This document shows positions 4,069 through 46,707 of a stretch of 64,000 nt of DNA, in pieces. This DNA is from Pirellula sp. SH-Sr6A (GTDB taxonomy: Bacteria > Planctomycetota > Planctomycetia > Pirellulales > Pirellulaceae), in assembly GCF_001610875.1 (NCBI RefSeq), contig NZ_CP011272.1, positions 5,747,988-5,811,987 on the forward strand, read 5' to 3'. Under the pieces are notes generated by a model. The model was not told the DNA's origin, made no database searches, and saw nothing but the letters and a program-made list of their open reading frames with translations. The translations under genes and the position numbers were made by a program. Within the stretch, counting starts at the first letter, position 1. Every line of letters begins with the position of its first letter.

Positions 4069-5337
4069 TTATGCACTTTTGTCCGAAATTTCTCCTGTAT
4101 TGATGTTTGATTCGCAAGCTTCAAATGTCACCATACTCCCGGGTTTTGAAACAATAATCGCATCAGCGACACCGCTAATCTGTCGAAGTCCTTGGATCAT
4201 CTCCTCGTGATATTCGGTACGCCGTGAGTCATCCCAGATGAAGGAAATCAGCTTGTCGTACTTCGAGCCTGGTACGAGGTAGAGACTTGCATCCTGCGCT
4301 ATCTGCTCAACCATTTTCTTGGGCGGATCGCTCGAGCGCATAAACTTGGCTTCAACGATCAGACGAAGGGAAGGCAAGCCAATGTCTGCCCTCGGTTGAA
4401 CTGGACCGACCTTCGGCGTTGAGTCTTCATCGACAAGGTTAGGGTGCAAGGGGGCCAAAACTAGCCAAAGCATATTCTGAACGTGGTATTCATTTTCAAT
4501 ATGCCATTGCCTAGCAGCTGGTGCTGTTCGGGTCCGAGGATTGCTTTCCCAAGTCCATTTTTTCAAGCCTGATGGGATTCGTCGAAGCACCTCGGCGACA
4601 TCTGTGGCGTTCACGGCATGGATATCACATGTTGGACGCTCTCGCTTGATCCAATCCAATGCGGCAAGTCGGATGGCCGCACGAGCATTTCCGATTCCCG
4701 TTATCGACGAACTGCGAACGAAGTCAAGTACAAGTTGTTCGTCTTCGGAGCTGATCGCTCCGATTCCACGAGAACTAAGTGCTACCCGAACAGCGGCAGC
4801 CTCTTGGCAATCAACACACCTTCGGTTCCAACTCGCAGCTGTTTGTTTGGCGATACAGTCGAGAAGCCAATCTTGCCATGATTCGAGCCCCAAACCTTCA
4901 GCAGTTGCCTCGCGACACTTGCGAAGCCAATTACATGTATTTTTCCAGATTGCATCGTCGCCGGTCGCTTTAGCTCCAAGAACTAAGGATCCAAGCGCCA
5001 CGCCGTTCATACAGAAACCCATCGGCGTTCCCGCAACAACGGGCTCTCTATTTATCGTCACATTTAAGCCAGCGACTAGGGCTTCTCTTTCTTGGGGAGA
5101 AAGCGCGCGAACCTGTGCTGCCAGTCCGAGGACAGCGACGTGGGCGAAGCTCCTCTCGGCTCCGGCGACGTTAACCGCATCAGATACTGCTCTTTCTATG
5201 CTTACTCCAGGAATAGCATTGGGACAGAGCCAAGCTACAAACGCCTCATGCAGATCGCTGCGTCCTGCAACCGTTGCGATCTCGCGAGTTAGCGTTTGAC
5301 GTGCATCTTCAATCAGGATGGTGTGAACGCTACTCAT
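4069..5337 (-). CDS. Argonaute-associated PD-(D/E)XK nuclease
   Basis: The protein has 422 residues and starts MSSVHTIL. Its ATG overlaps the Argonaute stop codon as ATGA (5334-5337), which sets the start and indicates translational coupling. The frame extends further upstream to 5490, but that part lies inside the Argonaute gene. The N-terminal 260 residues are mostly helical and unassigned. The C-terminal domain has a nuclease core: E281/E283 in HIENEYHVQ, D318 in RADIGLPS and E329-x-K331 in IVEAKF, followed by a QIAQDASLY helix. In long-B Argonaute systems (Song et al. 2023) a partner nuclease acts as effector once the Argonaute senses foreign nucleic acid. I infer the same role here. Confidence 0.8.
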   Translation of the reverse strand: MSSVHTILIEDARQTLTREIATVAGRSDLHEAFVAWLCPNAIPGVSIERAVSDAVNVAGAERSFAHVAVLGLAAQVRALSPQEREALVAGLNVTINREPVVAGTPMGFCMNGVALGSLVLGAKATGDDAIWKNTCNWLRKCREATAEGLGLESWQDWLLDCIAKQTAASWNRRCVDCQEAAAVRVALSSRGIGAISSEDEQLVLDFVRSSSITGIGNARAAIRLAALDWIKRERPTCDIHAVNATDVAEVLRRIPSGLKKWTWESNPRTRTAPAARQWHIENEYHVQNMLWLVLAPLHPNLVDEDSTPKVGPVQPRADIGLPSLRLIVEAKFMRSSDPPKKMVEQIAQDASLYLVPGSKYDKLISFIWDDSRRTEYHEEMIQGLRQISGVADAIIVSKPGSMVTFEACESNINTGEISDKSA

Positions 5338-7667
5338 AGAAACCATCTTCCTTCTCCGATCCGCCCGACCAGATGAATGGGATTCCATTGCGGCACAGTG
5401 GAAAGATTTCCTAGAAGTCGTGCGATCAACTCCGAATACTGGATCGTTACTGGAAGTGGCGAAGGGAAATAACTTCGCCATGAATGACACGCAAACGTGT
5501 TAACTTGACGGGTGAGGTAGGTCATGTCGTTAAACGTAGATCCTCGACCCAACCGCAATATGACGGGACGAGGCATTCCGTCTGATACCTGTTTAACATC
5601 CTTCGGCCCGGTAAGAGTCATTAAGATCTCGTGTCCGGATAATCGTAAGAAGCGTCCCCGCTCCGGCGCATAGACTCCTTTCATACCATTCTTGCCATCG
5701 TACGCAGGTTCACCTTCTTGGGATTGGTCGAACAACAGTAAGGGATGCTCCTCAACGACATGTAAAAATGCGTACTCGACGTCGTAATCACCAAGGCTTG
5801 CAATGAGTGCTTTGACTGCTTCTTCCTCAGCTTCCTTTAGCGGCTTGAAGGCGTGAAATACGAGTCGAACGTGTTCCTTTGGCTGCCATCCCATGTTCTT
5901 GGAAAGTCGCTCGATCGTATTTTTCAACGATACCAGCAATTCATCTGCGTAGTCCTCGAATCGTACAGCCCTGGACAGTGTTGAGAGACAGTAGTTGCCA
6001 TCTCCACTGAAAACTGTGGTTATCCCGACAACACGCTGAGTCTCGCCGAGCCTGCCCTCAGTGATTTGCGCACTACCCATGCCGACCACGAGTTCGTGTG
6101 CAATTGGCAGATGTGCCCTCACAAGCCATGGGACACCTCCAAGTTTAGCGTAAGTCGCGAGCGCCATATTGTTCAGTACATATTGCAACCTGCTGTCGGG
6201 AATTTCTGTTGTCTCGATCTCAAACTCCTGGACCGGAATCTGAAGACTCATGAATTCCGCTTTGGTGACTAGATAGGGGCTATTGCTACCCCGCAGTTCG
6301 TGAAATCGCTCTTCGGTCTCTACAAGAGCTAGGTCGTATCGGAAGTTCTGCTCACTTTGCGCCGCGGCAGCGCGGTACACTGCTTTTTGATAAGCATGGG
6401 CAGTAGGTCCATCACTCTCGTAAAAGTCTGTCGTAGCATCCTCAAGCGCGTACTTTCGAATTAGTCCCTTGGCAAATGGCGATCGATTGGATCCCGGAAT
6501 GGAGATTCCTCGTAGAAATTTGCGTATAAATTGTTCAACGCGACCCTTGTGATTCCTCTGGCAAACAACACAGATTCTTGGACGTGTTGGAGTAAACGTT
6601 GGTGCAGAATACGGGCCAAAATTTTCCATGCCACGATCGTGCCATGTGTCAGTCTTCCCACCAGACGGATCAAAAACATACGCAACCGATGGTGCCTTAT
6701 CGATGCGAGGAAAATTTCGACCATTGTCTTGCGACAGAAAAGAGCCAGTATGGCATCCAACACCTGGAGCGACTTCCAGTCGACGATCGGAAAAATATTT
6801 GCAAGTCGCTCGAAGTCGTTCAAAACGCGATGGACCGGTGTAAAAATTCTCAAGTAAGCCCCGTAATCGTTCGAGCGTGGCACCCGCCAAGTCTCCTAAA
6901 GCGTGTCGGACGAGCGGCTCGAACGCTGCCGCTTCGATTTGGACTTCATCAGGAGCGACATTGTCTTCGTTGTCGCGGTGATCGCTCAGAATCAACCTTT
7001 CAGCATCAATTCGATCGACACGACCGGCCAATCGGAATCGTGGTTGGATTCGTGAATCAGTCGATAGGACTTGCCGACCTACGTAATAGCCTTGGATATC
7101 AAAACCATCAGCGAGAAGTTCTTTACAGGTACGTGAAATCCTTCGCCGAGTGAATACGTTCAGGCAAAGACCCACAAAAGGCTCTTGCTGGTCAAAATGA
7201 AAAACTCGCACGTCTGCCTCAAACATCGGGCAAACATTAAGCCAATTCGGACAATCGACACCATCTGGAACCGCTTTCGAGAGAAGGTTTTCCCGTGATT
7301 CATCAGCGAGGAACGTAACTGGCCGAAAGTCATACACCTTACGCGGCATGGCGTATAAATGGCTTATTAGAGCGTTTCGCATCATGGAAGCTGCAAGTCC
7401 TAGTTCTTGCTTGAACGTAATGTTCTTGAAGCTGTCACCAATGGAAGGAGCATCCGCAACGAAGGCTACCGCCTCAATCTTTGATCCGTTCGTCCTGCGA
7501 AACACGTGTGTCGAACCATATTCAGCTCTAAGTGCTGCGAGCTGTTCCGCATTTTCATATGGCAATAGCCCGACGCGGACCTCAGTGTCGTCGAATACAA
7601 CTCTGGCAATGTTCAGACTAAATTTTGCCGCAGCGTGAGACCTCTGCGATCTAACGGTTTTTGACAC
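5334..7667 (-). CDS. Prokaryotic Argonaute, long type, catalytically inactive PIWI
   Basis: The protein has 777 residues, the length of a long pAgo. The MID domain lies at about 440-520, with a 5'-phosphate-pocket-like SPYLVTK (463-469) and IPVQ (477-480). PIWI runs from about 525 to the end. The strand that normally holds the first catalytic Asp reads VVGMGS, with Gly at 531. The strand usually ending in HRDG reads FHAFKPL (604-610). The C-terminus shows the family pattern STFNDMTYLTRQ...SWRSYFPS and ends RWFL. The catalytic tetrad is therefore absent, as in long-B pAgos that guide a partner effector. The protein probably binds a guide and detects plasmid or phage nucleic acid. It is the first gene of the cluster. 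Confidence 0.9.
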   Translation of the reverse strand: MSKTVRSQRSHAAAKFSLNIARVVFDDTEVRVGLLPYENAEQLAALRAEYGSTHVFRRTNGSKIEAVAFVADAPSIGDSFKNITFKQELGLAASMMRNALISHLYAMPRKVYDFRPVTFLADESRENLLSKAVPDGVDCPNWLNVCPMFEADVRVFHFDQQEPFVGLCLNVFTRRRISRTCKELLADGFDIQGYYVGRQVLSTDSRIQPRFRLAGRVDRIDAERLILSDHRDNEDNVAPDEVQIEAAAFEPLVRHALGDLAGATLERLRGLLENFYTGPSRFERLRATCKYFSDRRLEVAPGVGCHTGSFLSQDNGRNFPRIDKAPSVAYVFDPSGGKTDTWHDRGMENFGPYSAPTFTPTRPRICVVCQRNHKGRVEQFIRKFLRGISIPGSNRSPFAKGLIRKYALEDATTDFYESDGPTAHAYQKAVYRAAAAQSEQNFRYDLALVETEERFHELRGSNSPYLVTKAEFMSLQIPVQEFEIETTEIPDSRLQYVLNNMALATYAKLGGVPWLVRAHLPIAHELVVGMGSAQITEGRLGETQRVVGITTVFSGDGNYCLSTLSRAVRFEDYADELLVSLKNTIERLSKNMGWQPKEHVRLVFHAFKPLKEAEEEAVKALIASLGDYDVEYAFLHVVEEHPLLLFDQSQEGEPAYDGKNGMKGVYAPERGRFLRLSGHEILMTLTGPKDVKQVSDGMPRPVILRLGRGSTFNDMTYLTRQVNTFACHSWRSYFPSPLPVTIQYSELIARLLGNLSTVPQWNPIHLVGRIGEGRWFL

Positions 7668-8106
7668 GATTACCTTTCTTCAGGGGTAGGATCCGCATAA
7701 TCACTTGGTCGAGTCCGTCTGCGAATTCGCGTTTCAATGGATCATAAACCGTCGAATGCTACGGCGAAATTCAAAGATACCGACACACGTTAGAAATGGC
7801 AAAATCGATTGTCTAGTAGCTCAGGAATCACTTGTCGCGATTTCACGACGATTTTCTATGATTTTGAAGCAGATTGCACGTAGTCGATCCTGAATCAAAA
7901 CTGCGCCGAATGAATCATCGGCAACTTTTTATTCTCCTATCAGAATCCCAACGTGTTAGCCCTTCTGGTCAAGAATCTTTGCGTTTCAACGGTGCTAAGA
8001 GACGCGTTCAAGTGCCACTTCGAGTGCGTGATTCGAGACTGCCTGATCCGGTCCACGTACAATCAGGAAATCAGATTAGCCTGATTCTATCGCACAACCA
8101 GTCCAA
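7668..8106. other. Intergenic region between Argonaute gene and small-ORF array
   Basis: This interval must hold the promoter of the minus-strand Argonaute cluster and that of the plus-strand small-ORF array. Open frames at 7705-7893 and 7874-8110 have no clear ribosome binding site or recognisable protein. I see no gene here. Confidence 0.5.
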
Positions 8107-8148
8107 TTAGCTTTTCCCCGGCTAGCGAAAGATAAGGGGACCCCCTCG
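8107..8148 (+). promoter_or_regulatory. Leader motif copy 1 (riboswitch-like)
   Basis: Core: CTTTTCCCC, GGCTAGCGAAAGATAA, GGGG, ACCCCC. The 5' CCCC (8116-8119) can pair with GGGG (8136-8139), and GGGG can instead pair with the following C-run (8141-8145). Other copies keep the loop GGCTAG..GAAA.ATA while stem bases change together. It lies 89 bases before a 50-residue ORF. Confidence 0.65.
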
Positions 8149-8236
8149 ATTTCCAGCAACGCACTCTAGACGCGAGCGTATTTCGCTCAGGCAATCCTGC
8201 CTGGGCGCAATGCGTTACGTAACATGGAGATGCGTT

Positions 8237-8389
8237 ATGAAAACCTGGAAAACCTGGTGGTGTGACTTACCAATCGTCGGCAGCAAGGACGAACTCGAGT
8301 TCTTGTTGGCACTCATCCAGCATGCTGTTTCGATTTTCCTGATCTACTGCACGATCTGGGGAATCGCAGTGTACTTGTTGCTACTTTAG
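8237..8389 (+). CDS. Small membrane protein 1 of the tandem array
   Basis: The protein has 50 residues. It begins MKTWKTWWCDLPIVG, has a polar stretch SKDELE, then one hydrophobic helix running to the C-terminus (...YCTIWGIAVYLLLL). A GGAGATG motif lies upstream, and an identical or nearly identical gene exists at 45342-45494. It sits between a leader motif and a strong terminator, so it is probably its own transcription unit. I do not recognise the family. Conservation of both the leader and the protein between the copies argues for a real gene. Confidence 0.65.
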   Translation: MKTWKTWWCDLPIVGSKDELEFLLALIQHAVSIFLIYCTIWGIAVYLLLL

Positions 8390-8396
8390 GTTGTCA

Positions 8397-8421
8397 GGCT
8401 TCCCTTCGGGGAAGCCATTTT
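8397..8421 (+). terminator. Rho-independent terminator after small ORF 1
   Basis: Perfect 8-base stem GGCTTCCC/GGGAAGCC with a TTCG loop, followed by ATTTT. Confidence 0.8.
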
Positions 8422-8455
8422 GAAATTCGATCGCCATCACGCTCGTCCGACATAA

Positions 8456-8497
8456 CTCTGCTTTTCCCGGCAGGCTAAACATAAGGGAAACCCTTCG
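8456..8497 (+). promoter_or_regulatory. Leader motif copy 2
   Basis: CTTTTCCC, GGCAGGCTAAACATAA, GGG, AAACCC. The stem has shrunk to CCC/GGG and the 3' arm likewise reads CCC (8491-8493). It precedes small ORF 2 and is followed by a long GC-rich hairpin (CGCCCGCC/GGCGGG, about 8540-8563). Confidence 0.65.
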
Positions 8498-8592
8498 TTT
8501 TTGAACCGCAATCAGCCACCCAAGCAGCCACCATTCGACACGCCCGCCAATTCCGGCGGGTGTGCAGAGCAGTGACAACCAAGGAGGGCTGA

Positions 8593-8745
8593 ATGCGAAA
8601 TCGAAGTTATGCGAAGGGACAGAAAAAACCATGGATGAGCGACTACGAGCGTAGATATTTGCGGCAAGCATTGGCACAGGGAACACTTATCCTGATGTTT
8701 TTCTTCGTCGTGATGCTCCTCGCGTTTGTTTCGCTTCACCGATAG
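8593..8745 (+). CDS. Small membrane protein 2 of the tandem array
   Basis: The protein has 50 residues: a basic, Tyr-rich N-terminal half (MRNRSYAKGQKKPW, then DYERRYLRQALAQG) and a C-terminal hydrophobic helix (LILMFFFVVMLLAF) ending SLHR. AAGGAGGG at 8581-8588 is a near-ideal ribosome binding site and fixes the start. A decayed relative lies at 36360-36450. The family is unknown. The architecture of cationic head plus one helix resembles small regulatory membrane peptides, but that comparison is only structural. Confidence 0.65.
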   Translation: MRNRSYAKGQKKPWMSDYERRYLRQALAQGTLILMFFFVVMLLAFVSLHR

Positions 8746-8752
8746 GTTTTTT

Positions 8753-8775
8753 GGTTCCCGCAAGGGGACCTTTTT
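8753..8775 (+). terminator. Rho-independent terminator after small ORF 2
   Basis: Stem GGTTCCC/GGGGACC (one G-T pair) with a GCAA loop, then TTTTT. Confidence 0.75.
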
Positions 8776-8819
8776 GATCCAACTCCCGAATCGGTTCACG
8801 CCGAATCGGTCCGACTCAA

Positions 8820-8862
8820 CTAGCTTTTCCTCGGCTAGAGAAACATACGAGGAACTCCTCAC
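8820..8862 (+). promoter_or_regulatory. Leader motif copy 3
   Basis: GCTTTTCCTC, GGCTAGAGAAACATAC, GAGG, AACTCCTC. The 5' arm CCTC (8829-8832), the middle GAGG (8849-8852) and the 3' arm CTCCTC (8855-8860) all differ from copy 1 in step, which keeps both alternative pairings possible. Confidence 0.7.
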
Positions 8863-8960
8863 TCCGAAACCCTTCTCGACTCCATCACCAACGGGCTTCC
8901 GAATGGCTGGCTGCAAGCCAGTCATCAGGCAGTCATACCTGGTAACAATGGAGAAATGAG

Positions 8961-9110
8961 ATGAACGCTCAGAGAAGGGCACAACAGATTGAGAAGTGGC
9001 ATGAACATCAAATCAGAAAACATCAGCTAGCAGCGTTTAAGCGACTCTACTGGCAGCTTCTACTTTTCTTGGTCGTTTACACGATTGCGATCGTAGAGAT
9101 GATCAGCTGA
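8961..9110 (+). CDS. Small membrane protein 3 of the tandem array
   Basis: The protein has 49 residues: a highly charged N-terminal helix (MNAQRRAQQIEKWHEHQ) and a C-terminal hydrophobic helix (WQLLLFLVVYTIAIVEMI). A GGAGA-type ribosome binding site lies before the ATG. It shows no clear sequence match to small ORFs 1 and 2 but has the same length, topology and unit layout. Function unknown. Confidence 0.55.
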   Translation: MNAQRRAQQIEKWHEHQIRKHQLAAFKRLYWQLLLFLVVYTIAIVEMIS

Positions 9111-9126
9111 CTTGCCATTCATGCCC

Positions 9127-9147
9127 GGCCCCGCAAGGGGCCTTTTT
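9127..9147 (+). terminator. Rho-independent terminator after small ORF 3
   Basis: Perfect stem GGCCCC/GGGGCC with a GCAA loop, followed by TTTTT. Confidence 0.8.
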
Positions 9148-9456
9148 CGTTTTAGCGCTATGGCGTTTGCTAATCAACGGTGACGAGGATTGGAACCCAG
9201 AGAAACTGATGCTTCTTCGAGCAAGCGAAGTGCCCGTCGTCGATTTCCCGACAACAGTTCCTTCAACACTCTTGTGGCATCGTTTGTGTCAAGAATTGCC
9301 CAGAAGGGGACACTGGCAGTTCCCGACTCGTTGCTGTCGGGCTGAATGCGACCGTTGTCCTGCTGTAGAGAACGAAGTCCGCTTGCGTCGATGATTCCTG
9401 CGAAGGCTTGTAACATTCCCAAGCGTTTAGCACAGTTCTCGCGAATCAGTAAAGTT
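9148..9456. other. Intergenic stretch with a doubtful minus-strand ORF
   Basis: A minus-strand frame ending at 9174 could encode about 80 residues from an ATG at 9416 (MLQAFAGIID...), with ordinary codons. It has no good ribosome binding site and no family I recognise. It could be a third gene after the PLP enzyme or chance. I leave it uncalled. Confidence 0.4.
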
Positions 9457-10704
9457 CTATCTGCAAGAATAATGCAAATGATGCGGCACGCCGTTGAATC
9501 CCAAGACAAGTTGATCGAGTTCGTCGCCAATCAGAGCGGATGTGGGCTCGGATACGCGAACCAATCCCTTGTCGTAAGCACTGACCACCAATCCACTGCG
9601 AAAGAATCGGCTTCGAATAACTTCCGCTGGTAGCTTTCTCACGCTTGCAGTGCCCGCCTTGAACACTGAGGCTTTGCTTTCCATGTCCGATGCTGTGGCA
9701 AGCCGTGTCCAACCATGGAGCGACTCGTAAGAGTCGATTGTGGTTCGGGCATCGGTGTTTGGGATATCGATCCGTGCCAAGGCGTCGATACAAGCTGCAT
9801 TGACGTTGAAAAGGGGAGCGATAGAAACCGTTTCGCCGAATCGATTGAATCGACCGGTCTCAAGTTCCATGGTGAATCGGAGGAGCGGATCTTCGAGGTA
9901 TCCCATCCTTGTCCAACGCTCCAGGGTGGAATGGACATAACTCCCGTTCTGCCGCATGCAGTAGAATCCCACGCCCATCGGGGAATAGGCTCGGAGCCAC
10001 TTTTGAGTACTCGCAATAAGTAAGTCGCAGTAGCATTCACTCAGCTCCAAGGGGATCTGACCCAGTGCTTGAGCACCATCAACGAGCACAAACCGCAAAT
10101 CAGCTGATGATTCAATCGCACGAACGATTCTCCGCACAGGTAGCTTCACGCCAAAATTATCGATTAGTGGTAAAAACAGCCCATCGCAGCGAAATGTGTG
10201 AAACGCCGCAGTGATTAACTGGACGACTTCACTCGAAGAAACCCCGTCCCGCATTATCTTTTCGCGAAGTGGTATCAGGGAGACCCTGCACGCGGCTGTG
10301 TGACTCTGCTGCTGGAGAATTGCTTGATAACCGGGCCAAGACAGGTCGGTGACCAAAACGTTCCTACATGGGCCAGAGAGGAGCTTTGCTCCAAACTGCA
10401 TCAGCGAGCTTGATCGAGAGGCGAGGGCAACCTCAACTTGCTCGTTTGCTTGGGATAGGCTTCTCAAATTCGCCTTCAGACCAGCGATGCCTTGCCACTC
10501 AGAGAGCCCTTCAAATTGCTCTTGCATCCACTGGGGCCAACTGTCGAAGCCACTTGATAACAGTTTACTCAGGTACAGATCGCCACCGAACTCAGCAGCA
10601 AACCGAGAGAAATCTACCGAAGCACGACAGGCCCTTGGCGACATTTGTCCTAGTCGTGCCGTATCGAGGTACAACGGCTTCAACACGACTGCAAAAACCT
10701 CCAC
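9457..10704 (-). CDS. PLP-dependent aminotransferase class V-like (cysteine desulfurase fold) protein
   Basis: The protein has 415 residues. The fold-type I PLP site is clear: VLVDGAQALGQ with D209 and Q212, then DLLIASTQKW with Schiff-base lysine K235. The arrangement matches the NifS/isopenicillin-epimerase class. I do not see the mobile cysteine loop of true cysteine desulfurases, so the substrate is unknown. It starts 19 bases after the upstream membrane-protein gene, on the same strand, so the two are probably co-transcribed. No Suf, Isc or thiolation partner lies nearby, which makes a housekeeping sulfur role unlikely. Confidence 0.7.
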   Translation of the reverse strand: MEVFAVVLKPLYLDTARLGQMSPRACRASVDFSRFAAEFGGDLYLSKLLSSGFDSWPQWMQEQFEGLSEWQGIAGLKANLRSLSQANEQVEVALASRSSSLMQFGAKLLSGPCRNVLVTDLSWPGYQAILQQQSHTAACRVSLIPLREKIMRDGVSSSEVVQLITAAFHTFRCDGLFLPLIDNFGVKLPVRRIVRAIESSADLRFVLVDGAQALGQIPLELSECYCDLLIASTQKWLRAYSPMGVGFYCMRQNGSYVHSTLERWTRMGYLEDPLLRFTMELETGRFNRFGETVSIAPLFNVNAACIDALARIDIPNTDARTTIDSYESLHGWTRLATASDMESKASVFKAGTASVRKLPAEVIRSRFFRSGLVVSAYDKGLVRVSEPTSALIGDELDQLVLGFNGVPHHLHYSCR

Positions 10705-10723: not shown

Positions 10724-11758
10724 TCAATGCTTCTGATCCAGTAGCTCCGCGTAAGAAACTGAGTAAACCGTCAGTCGACTCCACTGGGCTTCAGCCTGGC
10801 GAAGTTTTGCGAAATCGAAACTCAGAACGAATCGAATGGTCCGGCCAGCTGGGTCGGCAAGCTGTATTCCAACTGCTCGGTTTCCGTAGATCCCAAAGTC
10901 ATTCAACAGATCTGTCTCCGTACCTACATCAGACTCCCGGAGCAATCTCAAGCGAATGCCATGGCGATGCTGCTCATCAAGCCATGAGTGAATTGGCTCA
11001 ATTGGGAACAAGGCCTCCTCTGGCCAAAGATGGTCGGCGATGATTGCAATGCGTTCGATGCTCACGATCCTTGCATCCTGCAATTCCAGATTGAGCTTGG
11101 TGCTCTGTTGCCCTGGACCGTCCTGCCAGTAGTGGGCGGATTCGATGTAGGAGACCGATCGATAAAGATGCAAGCCAGGACTGCGGAGCAACTCCTCATA
11201 GACAACCCTCCAGCTTTCTGTGGAGGGAAACTCAATTGTCGCAGCTCCCATCAGTTCGCTTTGCTCAATAATTGATTGCAGACGCTGGTGTGCCAGACTG
11301 CGAAAGATTGGATCTGTTTGGTCTGCGACTTTCTCCAATGCATCAGCGAGCGCGTTGTGAAGCTGACTAATCTCCCGGTCGCGAGAAAGCCCCAAAAGCA
11401 TTTTGAGGATTCTTGGTTGCGATTCTGTTGCTCGCAATGCGTGAAGTGTTTGGAGGGTGAATGTGAGTAAGACGCATAGAAGAATCGAAATGTAAGCCGC
11501 GACGACGCTAAGAGGAGCGAAAGCGGCCAAGACCAATCCGATTGATGCCAAAGTTAATGCAGTTGGTAATGGTGGCAGCTGTATCGTACTCCGAAATGCT
11601 TGACTGGAAGTGATCATCTCCATCGGAATCTCCATCACCTTGTGTCGTGTTCTCTCAGGGACCACGATAATCGCGATGTAGCATGACAAGAGAATACGAC
11701 TTAGAGCAATGATCTTGCGGTGAAATACTTTAAGCCCGTCATGAGTTGTGACTAACAA
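10724..11758 (-). CDS. Membrane-anchored protein of unknown function, partner of the PLP enzyme
   Basis: The protein has up to 344 residues. A first hydrophobic stretch (IIALSRILLSCYIAIIVV) near residue 20 and a strongly hydrophobic hairpin at about 65-105 suggest membrane insertion. The remaining 230 residues look soluble, with conserved-looking patches such as SAHYWQDGPG and DHLWPEEALFP. A later start at MEIPMEMI is possible and would remove the first stretch. I do not recognise the soluble domain. It is the first gene of the pair with the PLP-dependent protein. Confidence 0.6.
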   Translation of the reverse strand: MLVTTHDGLKVFHRKIIALSRILLSCYIAIIVVPERTRHKVMEIPMEMITSSQAFRSTIQLPPLPTALTLASIGLVLAAFAPLSVVAAYISILLCVLLTFTLQTLHALRATESQPRILKMLLGLSRDREISQLHNALADALEKVADQTDPIFRSLAHQRLQSIIEQSELMGAATIEFPSTESWRVVYEELLRSPGLHLYRSVSYIESAHYWQDGPGQQSTKLNLELQDARIVSIERIAIIADHLWPEEALFPIEPIHSWLDEQHRHGIRLRLLRESDVGTETDLLNDFGIYGNRAVGIQLADPAGRTIRFVLSFDFAKLRQAEAQWSRLTVYSVSYAELLDQKH

Positions 11759-12499: not shown

Positions 12500-13411
12500 T
12501 TATCCTAGCTGCACGTTGTTCTCGATTCGAAGTCGCACTTCATCGAGAGCTTGCTGCAATGCTTGCTCCACTTCGTGATAGTTGGCTTTGCGTGCCGCCG
12601 AAACGGTGATCTTCCAACCATCTTCCAGAACGAAGGTCTGCTTCACACCTCGCTGCTTCTTAGTGGTACTGCCTGCACGCATCCGAACCTGCTTTTGCAC
12701 CGAGTCGATCGAGGGCTGCACCTGATCCGATGGTCCTACAGTAACGGCGGCACGTTGTTGTTCTTCGGACTCAAGTTTCGAGGCCTCATAGGCCGCACGT
12801 GCTGAAATTTCTCCAGCATCGATGCGTTCGCGAATGTCCGAAGGCAGTTTTAGCAAGGCGAGGGAACGCGCGATCTTTGGCTGGCTTACTCGTATCGCCT
12901 CGGAAAGCTCCTTAGCGGTCCAGCCATTGAGTTTCATCAGATCATCAAACGCCGTTGCCTCTTCAATTGGCTTGAGGTCAGCTCGAAGTAAGTTCTCGAT
13001 CAACTGTTGTTCGAGAATGTCTGTTTTGGTCAGCTCGCCTTCTTGGAAGTAACACTCTGCGGTGGTTAGTCCTGCTAGCTTGATTGCTCGGAAGCGACGT
13101 TCACCGGAGATTATGATCCATTTGCCATGCGTTTCAGACCATCGAACTCGAATGGGGTGCAATTGCCCCTTATCCAGGATGCTCTTGGAAAGGTGCTCAA
13201 TCTCTTGCTCATCGAACTCCGTTCTCGGCTGGTCGGGATCGGGGATGAGGATTTCAATCGCAAGTGTTCCGAACGTGCGAAGAGCGCGTCTCCCAACATC
13301 CTTGGCATTTGGAACAGGGCTCAACTGAGGACGAGAATCGTTGGCACGAACTCCCATCGATTCATCGAGCTGGGGTTTGATTCGTTCTAAGATGTTTCGT
13401 GTGCTTGTCAT
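12500..13411 (-). CDS. parB: ParB-family partition protein
   Basis: The protein has 303 residues. It carries the ParB/Srx nuclease-like N-terminal domain (IPDPDQPR about residue 56, SGERRFRA about 109, then EQQLIENLLR) and a helix-turn-helix region (WTAKELSEAIRVSQPKIARSLALL). The C-terminus is helical and charged, suited to dimerisation. With ParA it should segregate or stabilise a replicon by binding a centromere-like site. The palindromic repeats at 14261, 14737 and 14939 are the best local candidates for that site. The gene starts 6 bases after parA. Confidence 0.92.
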   Translation of the reverse strand: MTSTRNILERIKPQLDESMGVRANDSRPQLSPVPNAKDVGRRALRTFGTLAIEILIPDPDQPRTEFDEQEIEHLSKSILDKGQLHPIRVRWSETHGKWIIISGERRFRAIKLAGLTTAECYFQEGELTKTDILEQQLIENLLRADLKPIEEATAFDDLMKLNGWTAKELSEAIRVSQPKIARSLALLKLPSDIRERIDAGEISARAAYEASKLESEEQQRAAVTVGPSDQVQPSIDSVQKQVRMRAGSTTKKQRGVKQTFVLEDGWKITVSAARKANYHEVEQALQQALDEVRLRIENNVQLG

Positions 13412-13417
13412 AACTAC

Positions 13418-14230
13418 CTACGCCACCGTTCTCTTCTTCGCTTTCTGTGCAATTCGCCCCATGATCTCGCCGACCAATTCTCGCATCGTCACCGCCGCAG
13501 CCGATTTGGAACTGTAAAACTCCACTGGCTGCCGACATGCCAATGCAACTTTGAATGCGGAAGCTTCTGGCACGATCGTGTCTAGCACCATCTCTCGATA
13601 GAGTTCTCGCAATCGCTCCTCGTAGGAACGATGAACGAGGAGCCGTTTGTCATACCTTGTTACTAGATGTCCCAAGCGGCGAAGTGATGGATTCAGCTGG
13701 CGTGCGTTATCGATGGCTTGATGCACGGCACGCAGGCCTTGGGTTCCGAAGTCTTCAGGAGGAACTTGAATCACAACGTAGTTCGCTGCAATCATCGAGT
13801 TCCAACTGCATTGATAGAGATTTGGTGGGCAGTCGATCATCACGATGTCGTATGCGTCCTGCTGCTCAAGGAATTCACGGACGACGAATTGAGTCATGCC
13901 TGCGGTTGCAGGCTTTGGAGCGTTGAAGTCGGCGAGGTGTTGGTTCGCAGGAACGATCGAGATCTTCTCAAATCCTGTTGGGCGGATGAGCAACTGCTGA
14001 TCGAGGAAGAAGCAGTTCTCATCGAACAATGCGGCAAGTGTTTCGCTTGCTGGTAACTGTTCCACGAAATCAGATCCGAGAAAGCCCTGGCTAAGTGATC
14101 CTTGTGGATCGGCGTCAACGAGCAGAACCGAATAGCCAAGTGCTGCGTACGCACCTGCTAGATGGAAGCATGTCGAACTCTTGCCGCAGCCGCCTTTCTG
14201 ATTGATGAGACAAAGTGTGATTGCTGCCAT
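13418..14230 (-). CDS. parA: ParA-family partition ATPase
   Basis: The protein has 270 residues, a typical small ParA length. The deviant Walker A KGGCGKSS (12-19) follows the first strand, then LLVDADPQGS and the Walker B-like IVMIDCPPN. It belongs with plasmid-type ParA proteins (no N-terminal DNA-binding domain). It uses ATP to position its replicon through ParB. First gene of the operon; a 19-base palindromic repeat lies 31 bases upstream of the start, where it could also act as operator. Confidence 0.92.
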   Translation of the reverse strand: MAAITLCLINQKGGCGKSSTCFHLAGAYAALGYSVLLVDADPQGSLSQGFLGSDFVEQLPASETLAALFDENCFFLDQQLLIRPTGFEKISIVPANQHLADFNAPKPATAGMTQFVVREFLEQQDAYDIVMIDCPPNLYQCSWNSMIAANYVVIQVPPEDFGTQGLRAVHQAIDNARQLNPSLRRLGHLVTRYDKRLLVHRSYEERLRELYREMVLDTIVPEASAFKVALACRQPVEFYSSKSAAAVTMRELVGEIMGRIAQKAKKRTVA

Positions 14231-15162: not shown

Positions 15163-16440
15163 ATGGCAGCAAAAAACGCAGCGACAAAGCGAACCACTGG
15201 GATCGGCCAACTCTCGCTGGTCGAACACGCCTTGTGTCCACTCGACCCAAAGGTATCCCTGACCGAAAACCTCGTCTTTGACTCCGAGTATTTCTACTAC
15301 CCCAACTCAGACACCAAGCGTTCTGCTCGCGCTCGAGTGTTCTGCCCACTTGGACTCTCCGCCGCTGATGAGCTTTATCTCTGGGGATTGCTCGCCCTCA
15401 CCCTACTCCAGCCAAATCCCGAGCCAGAACTCTTCGCAACTCCGCATTGGTGCCTTCGCCAGCTCGGCGTGATCAATCAAACCAACAAACGTGGTGGCCG
15501 TCAGTACAAGCAATTTGCCGAAGCCATCCGCCGATTGTCTGCTGTGACCTACATGAACGATGGGTTCTACGATCCGATCCGCGAAGAGCATCGTCGAGTC
15601 AGCTTTCGCTTCTTCAGTTACAGCCTGCCGGTGAATCTCGAATCAGGCCGGAGCTGGCGAATCGCCTGGGACCCAATCTTCTTTGAGATGATTCAATCTG
15701 CCGCTGGCCACTTCCGATTCGACTTAGCCATCTACCGAGAACTTGATGCAGCCAGTCGACGGTTGTTTCTCTTTGTCAGCAAGGTTCTTCCCCGTCGCTC
15801 GCACTTGAACGCCCTTCGGTTGGAACACGTCGCGGTAAACATCCTCGGGTTCAGTTCCTCGGTGGCAACTCGGGATATGAAGGTAAAAGTCTCGAAGTGC
15901 CTTCAGAACCTCATCGACCTGCATGTCCTAAGCGAAGCTGAAGTGTTCAAGACCTCCCCTGGCCGCTATTACGTTCGCTTGTCACGAGGTCCCTACTTCG
16001 CTCAAAAGTCTCAGCGTGCATACATTGCCGCAGCCGAAGATTCGCCGTTGTTTGAAACACTCCAGATCATCGGATTCGAGGAAGCTGCTGCCGCGAGATT
16101 AATCGCCAAGTTCCCTCCCCGACTCCTTGCGGAATGGGCTGACATTACCCAAGCAGCCATCGAGCGATTCGGTGTTAGCTACTTCCACAAGTCGCCAATG
16201 GCTTACCTCGTTGATTCCGTGACTAAGGCAGCACAAGGTACACGAACTTGTCCCGATTGGTGGCAAGATCTTAAACGAGCAGAGCGACAAGAGTTGGAGA
16301 TGTCTGTCGAGAGCCAGCGAGTCTTCACTCAGATTCGAGCTGAACTCTTCGGTGATGTTTCCGAACCAACAGCACCAGCAAAACGCCGCGAAGGTCCAAT
16401 TGCAAGCGTCAGCCAGATCCTTCGCAACATCGCATCGTAG
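15163..16440 (+). CDS. Plasmid-type replication initiator protein (RepA/RPA-like)
   Basis: The protein has 425 residues. The region at about 20-270 fits the winged-helix replication initiator A family: FCPLGLSAADELYLWGLL, then TPHWCLRQLG, FSYSLPVN, a WDPIFFEMI strand and YRELDAASRRLFLFVSKVL. The C-terminal 150 residues are helical. AGGAAAGGG precedes the ATG. It lies divergent from parAB across an iteron-like region, with a DnaA box downstream: the normal layout of a plasmid replicon, here inside apparently chromosomal DNA. Assignment rests on pattern and context. Confidence 0.75.
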   Translation: MAAKNAATKRTTGIGQLSLVEHALCPLDPKVSLTENLVFDSEYFYYPNSDTKRSARARVFCPLGLSAADELYLWGLLALTLLQPNPEPELFATPHWCLRQLGVINQTNKRGGRQYKQFAEAIRRLSAVTYMNDGFYDPIREEHRRVSFRFFSYSLPVNLESGRSWRIAWDPIFFEMIQSAAGHFRFDLAIYRELDAASRRLFLFVSKVLPRRSHLNALRLEHVAVNILGFSSSVATRDMKVKVSKCLQNLIDLHVLSEAEVFKTSPGRYYVRLSRGPYFAQKSQRAYIAAAEDSPLFETLQIIGFEEAAAARLIAKFPPRLLAEWADITQAAIERFGVSYFHKSPMAYLVDSVTKAAQGTRTCPDWWQDLKRAERQELEMSVESQRVFTQIRAELFGDVSEPTAPAKRREGPIASVSQILRNIAS

Positions 16441-36359: not shown

Positions 36360-36450
36360 ATGCGGCGGAAAAACTATATAAGGGGCGTAAAAAGCCATGG
36401 CTAAGCGACTACGAACGTCGATTGTTTAACCAAGCATTGGCACAGGGAAC
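36360..36450 (+). pseudogene. Decayed copy of small membrane protein 2
   Basis: GGAGG and an ATG at 36360 precede a sequence aligning with 8593-8686: the parts encoding RNRSY, KKPW.SDYER and FNQALAQGT-like residues are recognisable. One base is lost near codon 8, shifting the frame. The match stops at 36450 (CACAGGGAAC), where the four-helix-bundle cassette begins. The hydrophobic C-terminal half is missing. Confidence 0.7.
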
Positions 36451-36467
36451 GTGCAGGAGCAAAATGT

Positions 36468-36829
36468 TCATGTTTCTCGATTTTCAAGACCATTGATCAG
36501 ACCGGATAACATGCGAGAGATTTCCTCAAGTTGTGATTTAATCTGTTTGTGTTTTGCATCGTCGATCAGCCCTCGACGTTTGGCAAGTTCGAGTTGAGGT
36601 ACACATTCCTGGACAGATCCTCGTGCGATGCCGAAGAAGTGTTTGCGATCTGCTTTGGTGAAGCGACCATTGCCTTCGGCGATGTTCGAGGAAATCGAGA
36701 GGGCGGCGCGATTGAGTTGATCTACGAGGAAGCCGTAGCCGCGTTGGAATTGTTCAGTGGCAACGCAAACGGAGTCTGCAAAGTCGACAGTTTTTTGGTG
36801 ACGAGGAGTTTCTCGAAGGCGAAGGTCAT
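36468..36829 (-). pseudogene. Four-helix-bundle protein, frameshifted (copy B)
   Basis: It starts MTFAFEKLLV like copies C and D, but a single base is missing at codon 11 (the expected TAC CAA reads AC CAA). From there the family sequence continues in another frame: QKTVDFADSV, GYGFLVDQLNRAALSIS, NIAEGNGRFTKADRKHFFGIARGS, CVPQLELAKRRGLID, ending MLSGLINGLENRET. The long frame to 37142 enters the family frame only by chance. The frameshift could be a sequencing artefact. Confidence 0.8.
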
Positions 36830-37045
36830 GGACTACTCCAAAAGAAGAGAGTAGTGAGTAGAAAGCAGATCGAGTCGATGGGAGAAAGTAGCTTGCGGCC
36901 TTGGATCGGCTTATGGCGTGTAAACCACCTGTTCTCCGATCTTGGTCTTTTCTACTCTCCACTTTCTCCCATCTACTCTCTATTTTTTTGGCCTTCCGGC
37001 CCAAAAAATCGGGGTGACAGGACACCAGTTGAACTTTTTTGGGCA
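36830..37045. repeat. Cassette upstream region and tail (copy B)
   Basis: It holds polypurine and polypyrimidine tracts, then a hairpin TTTTTTGG-CC/GG-CCCAAAAAA (36983-37008) and the tail TCGGGGTGACAGGACACC shared with 267-300 and 46291-46324. The hairpin bases differ from copy A but still pair. The stretch 37046-37293 holds no gene that I can see. Confidence 0.75.
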
Positions 37046-43847: not shown

Positions 43848-44196
43848 TCACTCTCTCGCGCATCTCACGTGTTCTGAGTAGTTATCAGGGGTTCGGAGAT
43901 CAGTTTAGCAAAAATGCATTTCTCCATCAGGGTTTTCGCGTTTTTCCAAATACTCCATGGGAAACAACATCGAGTCTGCGAATTCGCCCTTCCCCTCGCA
44001 ACGAATGCTTCTCTAATGGGACTGCAAAGTTGTCGCGTACATTTGTCTCTAGATTTGGCGAACGTGGCAAGGGATAACAGTGCACAACATCAAAGCACGT
44101 CCGGAAGTTGGAGCATAAATCGTACGGCTCGTTGAAACGCTAGACACAGTTGGATGAGTGTCCCTGGGTTTCACCACAAACTCTGATTTGAGTGGC
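43848..44196. other. Intergenic region, no gene seen
   Basis: It probably holds the promoter of the minus-strand protease gene. The small plus-strand frame at 43914-44135 has no convincing start signal or family. Confidence 0.4.
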
Positions 44197-44230
44197 CATT
44201 CCCAGGCTAGCGAAAGATAGCGGGATTGCC
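44197..44230 (+). promoter_or_regulatory. Leader motif copy 4, upstream of XRE regulator
   Basis: CCC (44201-44203), AGGCTAGCGAAAGATAGC, GGG (44222-44224), then ATTGCC. The loop matches copy 1 while the flanks differ. It is followed by hairpins TTGCCT/AGGCAA and CTTGTAAG/CTTACAAG. The next gene is the regulator at 44424. Confidence 0.5.
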
Positions 44231-44423
44231 TTTCATTGAATCAGCAGGCAATTTACCGAGCAAGTTGTAAGGAACACTTACAAGTTCGACCCACGGGGGA
44301 AACCGGTGGCCTCTGTGCGTTTGTATTCAAAGCATGATAAGGCGATTGTCTATCCGAGAAATGCAGTTCATAGATCCGGAAGGCTTACCAAGAGCAAGTG
44401 TACTTTGCATAGGCAGTTGGAAT

Positions 44424-44879
44424 ATGACTACTCACGAACAACAGCGATCGCTATCACGTCAGCTCTTGAGAGCTCGACTTGCCGCTGAACTCTCTCAAAA
44501 CCAAGTAGCGACGGCCCTACAACTCTCGGTAAAGGAAGTCGCTGCGTTGGAATCCGGTGAGCGTCTAGTCAGCACCCTTGAACTTTCCAAACTCGCCAAG
44601 TTGTTCCGGCAACCAATCAGGTCATTCGTTTTCGATGAGAATCTCGGGGAGCCGTCCGGCCGAATGCCGGATTCCGATTCGGCCCTTCAGCAAATGCTGG
44701 ATGAGCTTGCGACTCGAGAGCCGAACGCCATCAGCGACGACGAGCGATCTGCCGCGTTGCAATTGGCGCTGTACGCGTTTAAATCGGAAGAAATCTCGGC
44801 AGGCAAACTGAGAGATGTCGGTGCGTTGCTCGGCATATCAGCAGAAGAGTTGTTAAAGCTACGTCCAAATGACGAGTAA
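44424..44879 (+). CDS. XRE-type helix-turn-helix regulator
   Basis: The protein has 151 residues from the ATG at 44424; the frame is open to an ATG at 44334, giving 181. The HTH lies near the N-terminus: LSRQLLRARLAAELSQNQVATALQLSVKEVAALESGERL. A helical C-terminal region resembles those of regulators paired with ImmA/IrrE peptidases, but no such peptidase follows. Leader motif copy 4 lies upstream. Confidence 0.75.
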   Translation: MTTHEQQRSLSRQLLRARLAAELSQNQVATALQLSVKEVAALESGERLVSTLELSKLAKLFRQPIRSFVFDENLGEPSGRMPDSDSALQQMLDELATREPNAISDDERSAALQLALYAFKSEEISAGKLRDVGALLGISAEELLKLRPNDE

Positions 44880-45211: not shown

Positions 45212-45253
45212 TTAGCCCTTCCCCGGCTAGCGAAAGATAAGGGGACCCCCTCG
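45212..45253 (+). promoter_or_regulatory. Leader motif copy 5
   Basis: Same core as copy 1: CCCC (45221-45224), GGCTAGCGAAAGATAA, GGGG (45241-45244), ACCCCC. It precedes the duplicate small ORF. Confidence 0.65.
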
Positions 45254-45341: not shown

Positions 45342-45494
45342 ATGAAAACCTGGAAAACCTGGTGGTGTGACTTACCAATCGTCGGCAGCAAGGACGAACT
45401 CGAGTTCTTGCTGGCACTCATCCAGCATGCTGTTTCGATTTTCCTGATCTACTGCACGATCTGGGGAATCGCAGTGTACTTGTTGCTACTTTAG
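45342..45494 (+). CDS. Small membrane protein 1, second copy
   Basis: The protein has 50 residues. It encodes the same protein as 8237-8389 (MKTWKTWWCDLPIVG...); the one base change I see (TTG to CTG) is silent. One hydrophobic C-terminal helix. It keeps its leader motif and terminator. Confidence 0.65.
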   Translation: MKTWKTWWCDLPIVGSKDELEFLLALIQHAVSIFLIYCTIWGIAVYLLLL

Positions 45495-45560: not shown

Positions 45561-45602
45561 CTCTGCTTTTCCCGGCAGGCTAAACATAAGGGAAACCCTT
45601 CG
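45561..45602 (+). promoter_or_regulatory. Leader motif copy 6, orphaned
   Basis: Identical to copy 2. Its small ORF has been replaced by four-helix-bundle cassette C, so it now faces a convergent gene. Confidence 0.6.
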
Positions 45603-45677
45603 TTTTTGAACCGCAATCAGCCACCTAAGCAGCCACCATTCGACACGCCCGCCAATTCCGGCGGGTGTGCAGAGTTT

Positions 45678-46040
45678 TTATATTTCGCGGTTCTCGAGTC
45701 CATTGATCAAGCCGGATAGCATGCGAGAGATATCTTCAAGTTGGGATTTGAGTTTGACGTGCTTGGGCTCGTCGATCAGACCTCGACGTTTCGCGAGTTC
45801 AAGTTGAGGGACGCATTCTTGGACGGAGCCCCGTGCGATGCCGAAAAAGTGTTTGCGCTCGGCTTTGGTGAATCGACCATTGCCTTCGGCAATGTTGGAT
45901 GAAATCGATAACGCGGCGCGATTGAGTTGATCTACGAGGAAACCATAGCCGCGTAGAAATTGTTCGGTGGCGGTGCAGACTGCGTCAACGAAGTCGACGG
46001 ACTTTTGGTAGACGAGAAGCTTCTCGAATGCGAAGGCCAT
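45678..46040 (-). CDS. Four-helix-bundle protein (copy C, intact)
   Basis: The protein has 120 residues, the normal length of the 23S rRNA intervening-sequence protein family. It starts MAFAFEKLLVYQKSV and has the family motifs GYGFLVDQLNRAALSIS, NIAEGNGRF and CVPQLELAKRRG. The molecular function is not established; relatives include bAvd of diversity-generating retroelements. No rRNA gene is nearby. The gene abuts the truncated small-ORF array, 3 bases after its last matching base. Confidence 0.88.
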   Translation of the reverse strand: MAFAFEKLLVYQKSVDFVDAVCTATEQFLRGYGFLVDQLNRAALSISSNIAEGNGRFTKAERKHFFGIARGSVQECVPQLELAKRRGLIDEPKHVKLKSQLEDISRMLSGLINGLENREI

Positions 46041-46707
46041 GGTTCTCTCGGGCGGTGGAGAAGGGATGGGCTAGAAGTGACAGACTGCTAGATGGGGCGT
46101 TGGATTGCAGCAATCGTGTTTGACGACGCTGCGGTTTTAGAAAGTAGTGAGTGGAACGTAGACCGAGTAGAGAGGGAGAAAGAAGATTTTGTAGTTGGAT
46201 CGGTGTGAGGAGTGCGATGCAAACCTGCTCCGGTCCTGTTTTTCTACTATCTACTTTCTCCCCTCTACTCTCTATTCGCCAAAGGCGAATCGGGGTGACA
46301 AGACACCAGTTGAACTTTTCTGGGACGCGGTTCAGGATTGGACGTAAGACTTTGCGATTCGCCAAACCGCTGATTAGGCCGGAGAGCATTTTGGAGATCT
46401 CTTCGAGTTGCAATTTGAGCTCAATATGCTTTTCTTCATCGATCAAGCTTCGGCGACGCGCAAGTTCGAGTAGCGGCACGCATTCCTGAACCGACCCGCG
46501 TGCGATGATGAAGAAGTTCTTGCGGTCAGCTTTGGTGAAGCGACCGTTTCCTTCGGCAATGTTAGCAGAGACGGATAGAGCGGCACGATTGAGTTGGTCG
46601 ACAAGAAAACCGTAGCCTCGCGTGAACACTTCGGTGGTGGCACAGACTTGATCGGCGAAGTCAACCGCTTTTTGGTAGACTAGGAGCTTCTCGAATTGGA
46701 AAGTCAT
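45985..46707 (-). CDS. Four-helix-bundle protein (copy D) with aberrant C-terminal extension
   Basis: The frame encodes 240 residues. The first 120 are a complete family member (MTFQFEKLLVYQKAVDF ... MLSGLISGLANRK). Where other copies stop, this frame runs on through the tail and upstream region of cassette C and overlaps its start. The native stop was therefore probably lost when cassette C arrived at about 46324. The last 120 residues are unlikely to be functional. Confidence 0.75.
   Translation of the reverse strand: MTFQFEKLLVYQKAVDFADQVCATTEVFTRGYGFLVDQLNRAALSVSANIAEGNGRFTKADRKNFFIIARGSVQECVPLLELARRRSLIDEEKHIELKLQLEEISKMLSGLISGLANRKVLRPILNRVPEKFNWCLVTPIRLWRIESRGEKVDSRKTGPEQVCIALLTPIQLQNLLSPSLLGLRSTHYFLKPQRRQTRLLQSNAPSSSLSLLAHPFSTARENHGLRIREASRLPKVRRLR
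46025..46324. repeat. Long direct repeat, right copy
   Basis: Matches bases 1-300 almost exactly, in the same orientation. It covers the start of copy C, its upstream region, the hairpin ATTCGCC/GGCGAAT and the CGGGGTGACA tail. It marks the right end of the 46-kb repeat-bounded segment. Confidence 0.9.

Follow-up and report, generated by a model that had tools for sequence, protein, structure and literature searches.

What kind of RNA stands ahead of three consecutive small genes of Pirellula sp. SH-Sr6A, and how might it act on their expression? The genes lie in a 64,000-nucleotide (nt) stretch of contig NZ_CP011272.1 (positions 5,747,988 to 5,811,987, forward strand), which is called the window below and to which coordinates without a prefix refer. 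A short motif repeated ahead of each gene reads, as RNA, as an H-type pseudoknot of compact size, in which two covarying helices cross and one loop is A-rich. It is linked to a family of small proteins that are predicted to reside in the membrane, and it may serve standby-type control of their translation.

Architecture of the tandem units

An initial annotation of the window had described three tandem units between 8107 and 9147, each with a motif, a small open reading frame (ORF), and a terminator, and all of these parts were located as claimed. A 44-nt repeat occurs in three copies (at 8104, 8453, and 8817, spaced by 349 and 364 nt), and in each unit a motif of about 35 nt is followed by a long leader, an ORF of 49 to 50 amino acids (aa), and the terminator. 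The ORFs start at 8237, 8593, and 8961 and encode 50, 50, and 49 aa, respectively; for unit 1, an earlier ATG (8210) appeared in the ORF list, and the Shine-Dalgarno (SD) sequence fits 8237. This layout was constant in nine intact units, with a leader of 130 to 149 nt, a protein of 47 to 51 aa, and a hairpin with a T-run after the stop codon (hairpins outside the window were identified by eye). We regard the anatomy of the units as secure. The parts of the array are as follows.

8107..8140 (+): unit 1 H-type pseudoknot, first helix (P1) 8107-8112/8120-8125, second helix (P2) 8115-8119/8136-8140 (hand dissection, pair counts, descriptor)
8126-8135: A-rich third loop (L3) of the unit 1 pseudoknot
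8141..8240 (+): unit 1 leader, pyrimidine-rich spacer (17 nt), then a long stem predicted to contain the ribosome binding site (RBS) and AUG
8237..8389 (+): unit 1 small protein, 50 aa, predicted hydrophobic helix at the C terminus
8397..8421 (+): unit 1 terminator-like hairpin (8397-8416) with a TTCG loop and four T (by eye; the terminator scan did not list it)
8457..8490 (+): unit 2 pseudoknot (descriptor and hand dissection)
8593..8745 (+): unit 2 small protein, 50 aa
8753..8775 (+): unit 2 terminator, GCAA loop and T-run
8820..8854 (+): unit 3 pseudoknot (descriptor and hand dissection)
8961..9110 (+): unit 3 small protein, 49 aa, with homologues in the genomes G112, G250, G113, and G195
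9127..9147 (+): unit 3 terminator, GCAA loop and T-run

A covarying H-type pseudoknot

Hand dissection covered eleven distinct copies of the motif in five genomes (u1, u1b, u1c, u2, u3, x44205, g112a, g112b, g250, g113, and g195). In unit 1, the 5' strand of P1 (TTAGCT) pairs with GGCTAG, and the two strands enclose a loop of 0 to 3 nt and the 5' strand of P2 (TCCCC), which is contiguous with the 3' strand of P1 and is closed by GGGGA after the A-rich loop CGAAAGATAA. P1 comprises 4 to 6, P2 5 to 6, and L3 8 to 12 nt. The first loop (L1) is variable and differs among most copies, and L3 is conserved, mostly AAANAUAA, and A-rich. Both strands of the first helix, (Y)TAGC/GGCTAG, change together, to CTGCT/GGCAG, TCGGCC/GGCTGG, and AAGCC/GGCTT. 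Standard pairs were found at positions 1 to 5 in 54/55 cases in P1 and 54/55 in P2, and position 6 was paired in 7/11 (P1) and 5/11 (P2) copies.

Among eight nonredundant copies, P1 had 39/40 standard pairs and 4 double changes (shuffle mean, 1.0; P = 0.007), and P2 had 40/40 standard pairs and 8 double changes (shuffle mean, 2.7; 0 of 5,000 shuffles as high). Because the shuffles take no account of relatedness, these P values are optimistic, and a count of the pairs that show a double change did not by itself reach significance (P = 0.07 for P1 and 0.31 for P2). Compensatory changes were of several kinds and spread over different genera: A-U, G-U, and U-A at position 4 and U-A, U-G, C-G, and A-U at position 5 of P1, and C-G/U-A at positions 2, 4, and 5 of P2. 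In a separate count over eight distinct rows, 93.8% were paired, covariation was 0.318 versus 0.219 upon shuffling (0 of 500 as high), and sliding of the partner strand left at most 57.5% paired. G-U pairs were frequent in P1 (positions 1, 4, and 5), as expected for RNA. Across 445,124 bases, both strands included, a descriptor of the motif matched the 11 copies and only 3 further places (10 without the GGC condition), a background so low that the motif is beyond chance.

The covarying structured leader of small membrane-protein genes that the initial annotation had proposed thus stands; the form given to it, in which the first helix was overlooked, is replaced by the H-type pseudoknot. Of the signs that it had named as support, P1 and P2 show covariation, and the association with small ORFs recurs in relatives. 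Its further idea, that the middle strand can pair with either neighbor, does not describe the conserved feature. In units 1 to 3, the C-rich arm that follows P2 is complementary to GGGG, and relatives preserve this third segment poorly: a Watson-Crick complement of 3 to 4 nt was kept only in u1, u1b, u2, u3, and g113, and 6/11 copies (u1c, x44205, g112a, g112b, g250, and g195) had none of at least 3 nt (loop of at least 3 nt). A three-way switch was therefore rejected as a conserved feature. When G-U pairs were allowed, all 11 copies had a 3- to 5-nt complement to GGGG, a weak match (no chance level computed) that would allow a weak alternative pairing of the third segment. What is kept instead is a pyrimidine-rich spacer (10 to 25 nt, 53 to 80% pyrimidine) ahead of the RBS stem. 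Nothing points to a ligand-responsive switch, with L1 variable and L3 merely A-rich.

In agreement with the annotation, which could place the motif in no known riboswitch class, the motif had no match in Rfam. At gathering score, Rfam 15 returned one tRNA only for the whole window; there was no match at E ≤ 5 for positions 7950 to 9200, and at E ≤ 1 four homologous loci gave one weak ar35 match (E = 0.32), outside the unit.

The small proteins and their link to the pseudoknot

All eight distinct intact proteins (47 to 51 aa) have a C-terminal hydrophobic stretch (best 19-residue hydropathy, 1.95 to 2.77) and an N-terminal part of 26 to 32 residues with a net charge of +3 to +6, except in unit 1 (−1), and they are predicted to be single-helix membrane proteins. 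By sequence, their length and predicted C-terminal helix are those of the small (<60-aa), hydrophobic, and mostly membrane-spanning proteins of type I toxin-antitoxin systems. In a leave-one-out profile test, the u3, g112b, g250, g113, and g195 proteins formed a clear single family (28 to 52 bits; unit 3, 45.8 bits), those of u2 (15.6 bits) and g112a (17.1 bits) scored weakly, and that of u1 (1.0 bit) went unrecognized. Common descent of all peptides was thus not upheld, and the earlier remark that the proteins of units 1 to 3 are not obviously alike largely holds. Between unit 3 and its G112 homologue, the proportion of synonymous differences (pS, 0.72) exceeded that of nonsynonymous differences (pN, 0.30), and hence the unit 3 ORF is translated and under purifying selection. 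No Pfam, NCBIfam, or PADLOC family was found for the small proteins (PADLOC covered u1, u3, and g250), and PHROGs gave nothing better than E = 0.0067 (g112b against a "membrane protein" family, over 26 residues of the helix).

The link between RNA and protein came from searches with the protein alone. A two-sequence profile of unit 3 (A7), run against 241 genomes of the family, found G250 (E = 7.6e-8) and G113 (E = 0.031) among 8 genomes listed at E ≤ 0.05, and the profile with G250 added, run against 396 genomes of the order, found G113 (E = 1.6e-6) and G195 (E = 0.001) among 7 listed at E ≤ 0.02. In G250, G113, and G195, all found without the RNA, the pseudoknot lies 139 to 144 nt 5' of the ATG, on the coding strand. 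From the descriptor background, the chance of 3/3 is about 3e-13 (1e-11 without the GGC condition), and this recovery establishes a link between the pseudoknot and the unit 3 protein family. Three other matches of the enlarged profile (G272, G079, and G280) had no pseudoknot by the ORF-like match; L111 had one descriptor match about 1 kb off. A six-sequence profile gave no new member (beyond its own six, all E ≥ 0.0087; 31/241 genomes at E ≤ 0.1), and 25 loci of its weak matches held no pseudoknot, two further weak places having no locus.

Carriers amount to 5/241 family genomes and belong to four genera; in a phylum sample of 139 genomes, only the source genome matched. Covariance model R1 detected G112, a genuine case, among the 241 family genomes and missed G250, G113, and G195, which indicates that the RNA models are too narrow; the R1 and R2 searches scored no more than the 25 or 15 top candidates in each genome, and absence from them is weak evidence. 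Several candidates were rejected: L024 and L025 (R1) on reading, L084 and L085 (R2, 396 order genomes), and L020 and L021 (exact-pattern search of 99 relatives) as chance matches with the arms absent. Viral contigs gave 12 exact-pattern matches, none with both helices by eye, and no protein relatives with A7. The identical sequences L103 and L104 have P2 and the A-rich loop and no P1 partner. Plasmids had no match for u1, u3, or the G250 protein.

Predicted sequestration of the start site

The AUG lies 96 to 114 nt beyond the end of the pseudoknot, and in the minimum-energy folds of 8/8 leaders the upstream partners of the SD/AUG stretch (−16 to +3) all fall within the 45 nt that follow the pseudoknot. 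Shuffling of each leader gave P values of 0.000 to 0.203 for RBS pairing (2/8 below 0.05), which combine to 9e-5, the leaders being not fully independent. The energies needed to open the RBS were 8.1 to 16.2 kcal/mol. They stood above the shuffles in 5/8 leaders (at most 9/200 as high) and were weaker in g112a, g195, and g250, for which 17, 55, and 57 of 200 shuffles, respectively, were as high. In unit 1, the opening energy was 14.5 versus 6.6 in shuffles (1/200 as high), and 4/40 control genes were equally high. Folding z scores of whole leaders were −4.9 (unit 1), −5.0, −3.8, −1.2, and −2.7, the last for a leader whose pseudoknot lacked its 5' part in the fold. These predictions give moderate support to sequestration of the RBS by the sequence just after the pseudoknot.

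Only in G250 and G113 do promoter-like sites speak for a pseudoknot close to the mRNA 5' end. In these genomes, such a site ends 15 to 16 nt ahead of the pseudoknot, and its −10-like part would put the start about 9 nt before it.

Further copies of the motif in the genome

The initial annotation had correctly counted six motif copies in the window (8107, 8457, 8820, 44193, 45212, and 45562). Two further copies lie shortly before it (C1:5747145 and C1:5747522), which makes 8 copies in the genome, all inside about 46 kb of 6.53 Mb; no copy was found elsewhere in the genome by DNA match, exact pattern, or R1. The copies outside the first array are as follows.

44193..44225 (+): isolated pseudoknot with one P2 mismatch, 5' of an HTH_3 (XRE-type) gene
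45212..45245 (+): array 2 unit 1 pseudoknot, ORF 45342-45494 intact with one synonymous change
45562..45595 (+): array 2 unit 2 pseudoknot, ORF absent; homology to array 1 stops at 45674 and a 23S_rRNA_IVP (IVP-type) gene follows

Homology among the three unit 1 copies begins 3 to 18 nt 5' of the pseudoknot, with none further upstream, and the unit 1 ORF in the copy upstream of the window has a stop at codon 4. Two unit 2 copies are without their ORF, in whose place an IVP-type gene stands. The isolated pseudoknot lies 141 nt 5' of the in-frame ATG of the HTH_3 gene (44334-44879), a spacing equal to that of the small-protein units, and this gene resembles, by eye, parts of an XRE-ImmA-like protein (L017:7193-8434).

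Genes of the 23S rRNA-intervening-sequence type are repeated in this region (45681-46040, 46371-46707, 36459-36831, and L017:9642-10004); the first was assigned by family match and the rest by DNA similarity. Two stand directly behind a truncated unit 2 leader and one behind a truncated unit 2 ORF, as if such a gene inserted at the same units each time, and TCTACTTTCTC-rich stretches border them. At 36361-36450, a diverged fragment of the unit 2 ORF (80% DNA identity over 71 nt) is cut by an IVP-type gene, and no pseudoknot was detected ahead of this fragment.

A plasmid-like parAB setting

The units look as though they ride on an integrated, plasmid-like parAB element. Beyond the array, the window holds the following genes.

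9174-9530 (−): small gene
9457-10704 (−): class-V aminotransferase-like gene
10724-11758 (−): gene for a 344-aa protein of no family
12500..13411 (−): parB (Pfam ParB_N and HTH_ParB), convergent with the array, other genes between
13418..14230 (−): parA, by reading; the counterpart in G250 has Pfam matches to AAA_31 and CbiA
15163-16440: gene for a 425-aa protein, beyond parA

The order in the window (array, aminotransferase-like and 344-aa genes, parB, parA, 425-aa protein) is identical in G112, and in 5/5 genomes the units are convergent with parB, about 0.1 to 3.4 kb away. In G250 and G113, the unit is flanked by a cupin-like gene (integrase beyond) on one side and by a nucleotidyltransferase-like gene, a small gene, parB, and parA on the other; the cupin and nucleotidyltransferase matches are below the Pfam cutoffs, the G113 genes were read by eye, and the small gene beside parB in G250 has no Pfam match. 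The G195 unit directly adjoins parB. For the G250 ParA, the eight best plasmid matches (of 455 records) are all from planctomycete plasmids, with 38 to 46% identity.

Homologues of the 344-aa gene were found in 17/241 family genomes, at 23 places. The motif was absent from 20 regions around them (some contigs measuring only 4 to 8 kb) and from five further loci. With no array near these other copies, the units look like optional cargo of the element. A protein of 420 to 430 aa is encoded beside parA in four carriers (15163-16440; L106:12879-14141, L033:15411-16685, and L114:6077-7369) and is possibly the replication initiator of the element, an idea without backing from any match in Pfam (G250 and G112 copies), in NCBIfam or PDB (G250 copy), or among plasmids. 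The array is also adjoined by a gene for a prokaryotic Argonaute of 777 aa (5337-7667, minus strand; PADLOC pAgo_II, E = 5e-248), which scored 419 bits against NCBIfam NF052569, under the cutoff of 700. On the corresponding side in G112, a Dsr1 (SIR2) defense gene (PADLOC) replaces it.

Proposed standby-type control compared with known leaders

By analogy, the layout of these units is the same in kind as that of the tisB and timP leaders. In the Escherichia coli tisB/istR-1 system, translation of tisB depends on a pseudoknot at the 5' end together with a single-stranded region 100 nt 5' of a sequestered RBS, and the pseudoknot is required for binding of S1 and of the 30S subunit (PMC7708055). 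Salmonella timP encodes a 38-residue inner-membrane protein; its SD lies in a stable stem, and its leader pseudoknot is supported by covariation and essential for translation, processing being unnecessary (PMC11228461, PMC11295053).

Like tisB, whose mRNA encodes a small membrane-acting toxin, the leaders described here have an H-type pseudoknot, of which both helices covary, and an RBS about 100 nt downstream that is predicted to be sequestered (PMC7708055). They share with timP/TimR the small membrane protein and the start-site stem (both predicted here) and a covarying leader pseudoknot (PMC11228461, PMC11295053). The dimensions differ: in tisB, helices S1 and S2 and loop L3 comprise 9, 5, and 3 nt, whereas here P1 has 4 to 6, P2 5 to 6, and L3 8 to 12 nt. 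The tisB mRNA has a single-stranded standby region, requires processing, and comes with IstR-1, whereas the spacer of the present units shows no clear single-stranded character and the search for an antitoxin RNA gave none. The timP pseudoknot joins two distant stem-loops and its antitoxin TimR is known, whereas that of the present units is local and compact. Membership in the type I toxin-antitoxin systems is not claimed, since no antitoxin RNA was found, toxicity is suggested by analogy, and the spacer is as just described. In the available parts of the literature retrieved on Planctomycetota type I toxin-antitoxin systems, on structured RNA or pseudoknot motifs, and on small proteins of Pirellula plasmids, the element is undescribed. 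Among the entries in a survey of 104 motifs is one named "Rhodopirellula-1", which has no Rfam number (PMC2864571) and with which the pseudoknot may be identical.

We propose that a pseudoknot near the start of the mRNA, a short pyrimidine-rich spacer, and a long stem that masks the RBS and the start codon would work together. Like the pseudoknots of tisB and timP, that of the units would act as a platform from which the 30S subunit and S1 reach the sequestered start, and it could keep translation of a potentially harmful membrane peptide low and controllable. The peptide would then probably be a toxin-like stabilization (addiction) factor of the parAB element, as suggested by the position of the units on that element, on the parB side. 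We tentatively rate standby-type control, drawn from these analogies, as the best mechanism, and the toxin-like stabilizing role rides on it. More doubtful is the wider proposal of a new class of pseudoknot leaders for element-stabilizing peptides in Planctomycetota, which would be a standby toxin system independent of the enterobacterial ones, with leader-only control and no antisense antitoxin, tandem multiplication, and peptides that diverged almost beyond recognition while the RNA remained unchanged.

Several observations weigh against standby-type control of toxin-like peptides. Opening energies of the RBS were only modestly above those of 40 control genes with SD-like sites (Mann-Whitney P = 0.024; the control starts are unverified), and u3, g112a, g250, and g195 were unremarkable among these controls (14 to 23 of 40 as high). 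The mean unpaired probability of the spacer was 0.08 to 0.50, computed with the pseudoknot left out and 36 nt of coding sequence included, and a single-stranded standby site is not evident. The best promoter-like sites of u1, g112a, g112b, and g195 lie 43 to 85 nt upstream, and u2 and u3 have low-scoring ones only (no shuffle control); on this evidence, transcripts need not begin at the pseudoknot. The pseudoknot at 44193 is followed by the HTH_3 gene and not by one for a small membrane protein, the unit 1 protein is not recognizably related to those of the other units, and the family is known from five genomes only. Finally, the 3-kb flanks of eight units held no candidate for an antisense or trans-acting antitoxin RNA.

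Alternative explanations

This last result bears on the unlikely alternative that the units are complete type I toxin-antitoxin modules with an unrecognized cis- or trans-encoded antisense RNA. A small membrane protein, a structured leader, an own terminator, tandem copies, the place on the parB side, and a decaying orphan copy (the upstream one, with its nonsense codon 4) all suit such modules, as do weak antisense promoter-like sites, such as CTGACA-18-TACACT inside unit 1. These sites, however, do not recur at one position across units (no shuffle control). Nor is any exact segment of at least 14 nt shared in direct orientation between the 3-kb flanks and any of the eight units (longest, 13 nt), and the single 14-nt inverted match, in G195, falls in the 5' end of parA.

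A riboswitch for a ligand or an ion is improbable. In such a case the pseudoknot would be a small aptamer, of about the size of preQ1-I, the RBS stem its expression platform, and the peptides accessories of transport or stress responses. The preQ1-I riboswitch, about 35 nt long, is an H-type pseudoknot whose third loop is A-rich, and here likewise a covarying pseudoknot of that length with a conserved L3 stands 10 to 25 nt ahead of a stem predicted to sequester the RBS. Unlike in preQ1-I, the SD lies outside P2, and L1 is not conserved, differing among most copies; Rfam has no match, and the genes downstream are, apart from that behind the copy at 44193, those of small membrane proteins on a mobile element.

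About as improbable is the view that the pseudoknot chiefly shields the mRNA 5' end from decay, with translation control incidental. The transcript start placed about 9 nt before the pseudoknot in G250 and G113 would fit it, and pseudoknot mutants of timP also have less mRNA (PMC11228461). The near-constant distance to the predicted sequestered RBS would be left unexplained.

Very improbable is a DNA-level element, that is, a folded single-stranded site or cassette boundary for recombination with the ORFs as passengers: it would suit the point at which homology among unit 1 copies begins, whereas the G-U pairs of P1 fit RNA, orientation and the spacing of 130 to 149 nt to an SD-bearing ORF are constant, solitary units occur on the parB side in other genera, and the unit 3 ORF is under purifying selection. 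Integron attC sites lie at the 3' ends of cassettes; the motif precedes its ORF. STAXI (RF01728), listed for Enterobacteriales, is likewise a pseudoknot in repeated copies, two or three near integrase and antirestriction genes, and such tandem pseudoknots have been discussed as possible single-stranded DNA structures (PMC2864571). Unlike STAXI, which the available text of that survey does not describe as a leader of small genes, the present motif has no Rfam match.

Significance

Reports of type I toxin-antitoxin systems cover Proteobacteria, Firmicutes, and Tenericutes, and a single cyanobacterial case was claimed in 2025 (PMC12390103). Pseudoknot-dependent translation of toxin mRNAs is described for two enterobacterial cases, tisB and timP, and predicted for zor and shoB (PMC7708055, PMC11228461, PMC11295053). 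The 11 copies provide a seed alignment for finding small-protein modules without a Pfam, NCBIfam, or PADLOC family, and as natural variants they already include compensatory changes. A pseudoknot leader in Planctomycetota would provide an independent natural test of pseudoknot-dependent translation and, if the proposed role is true, a toxin-type pseudoknot leader would be new for planctomycetes.

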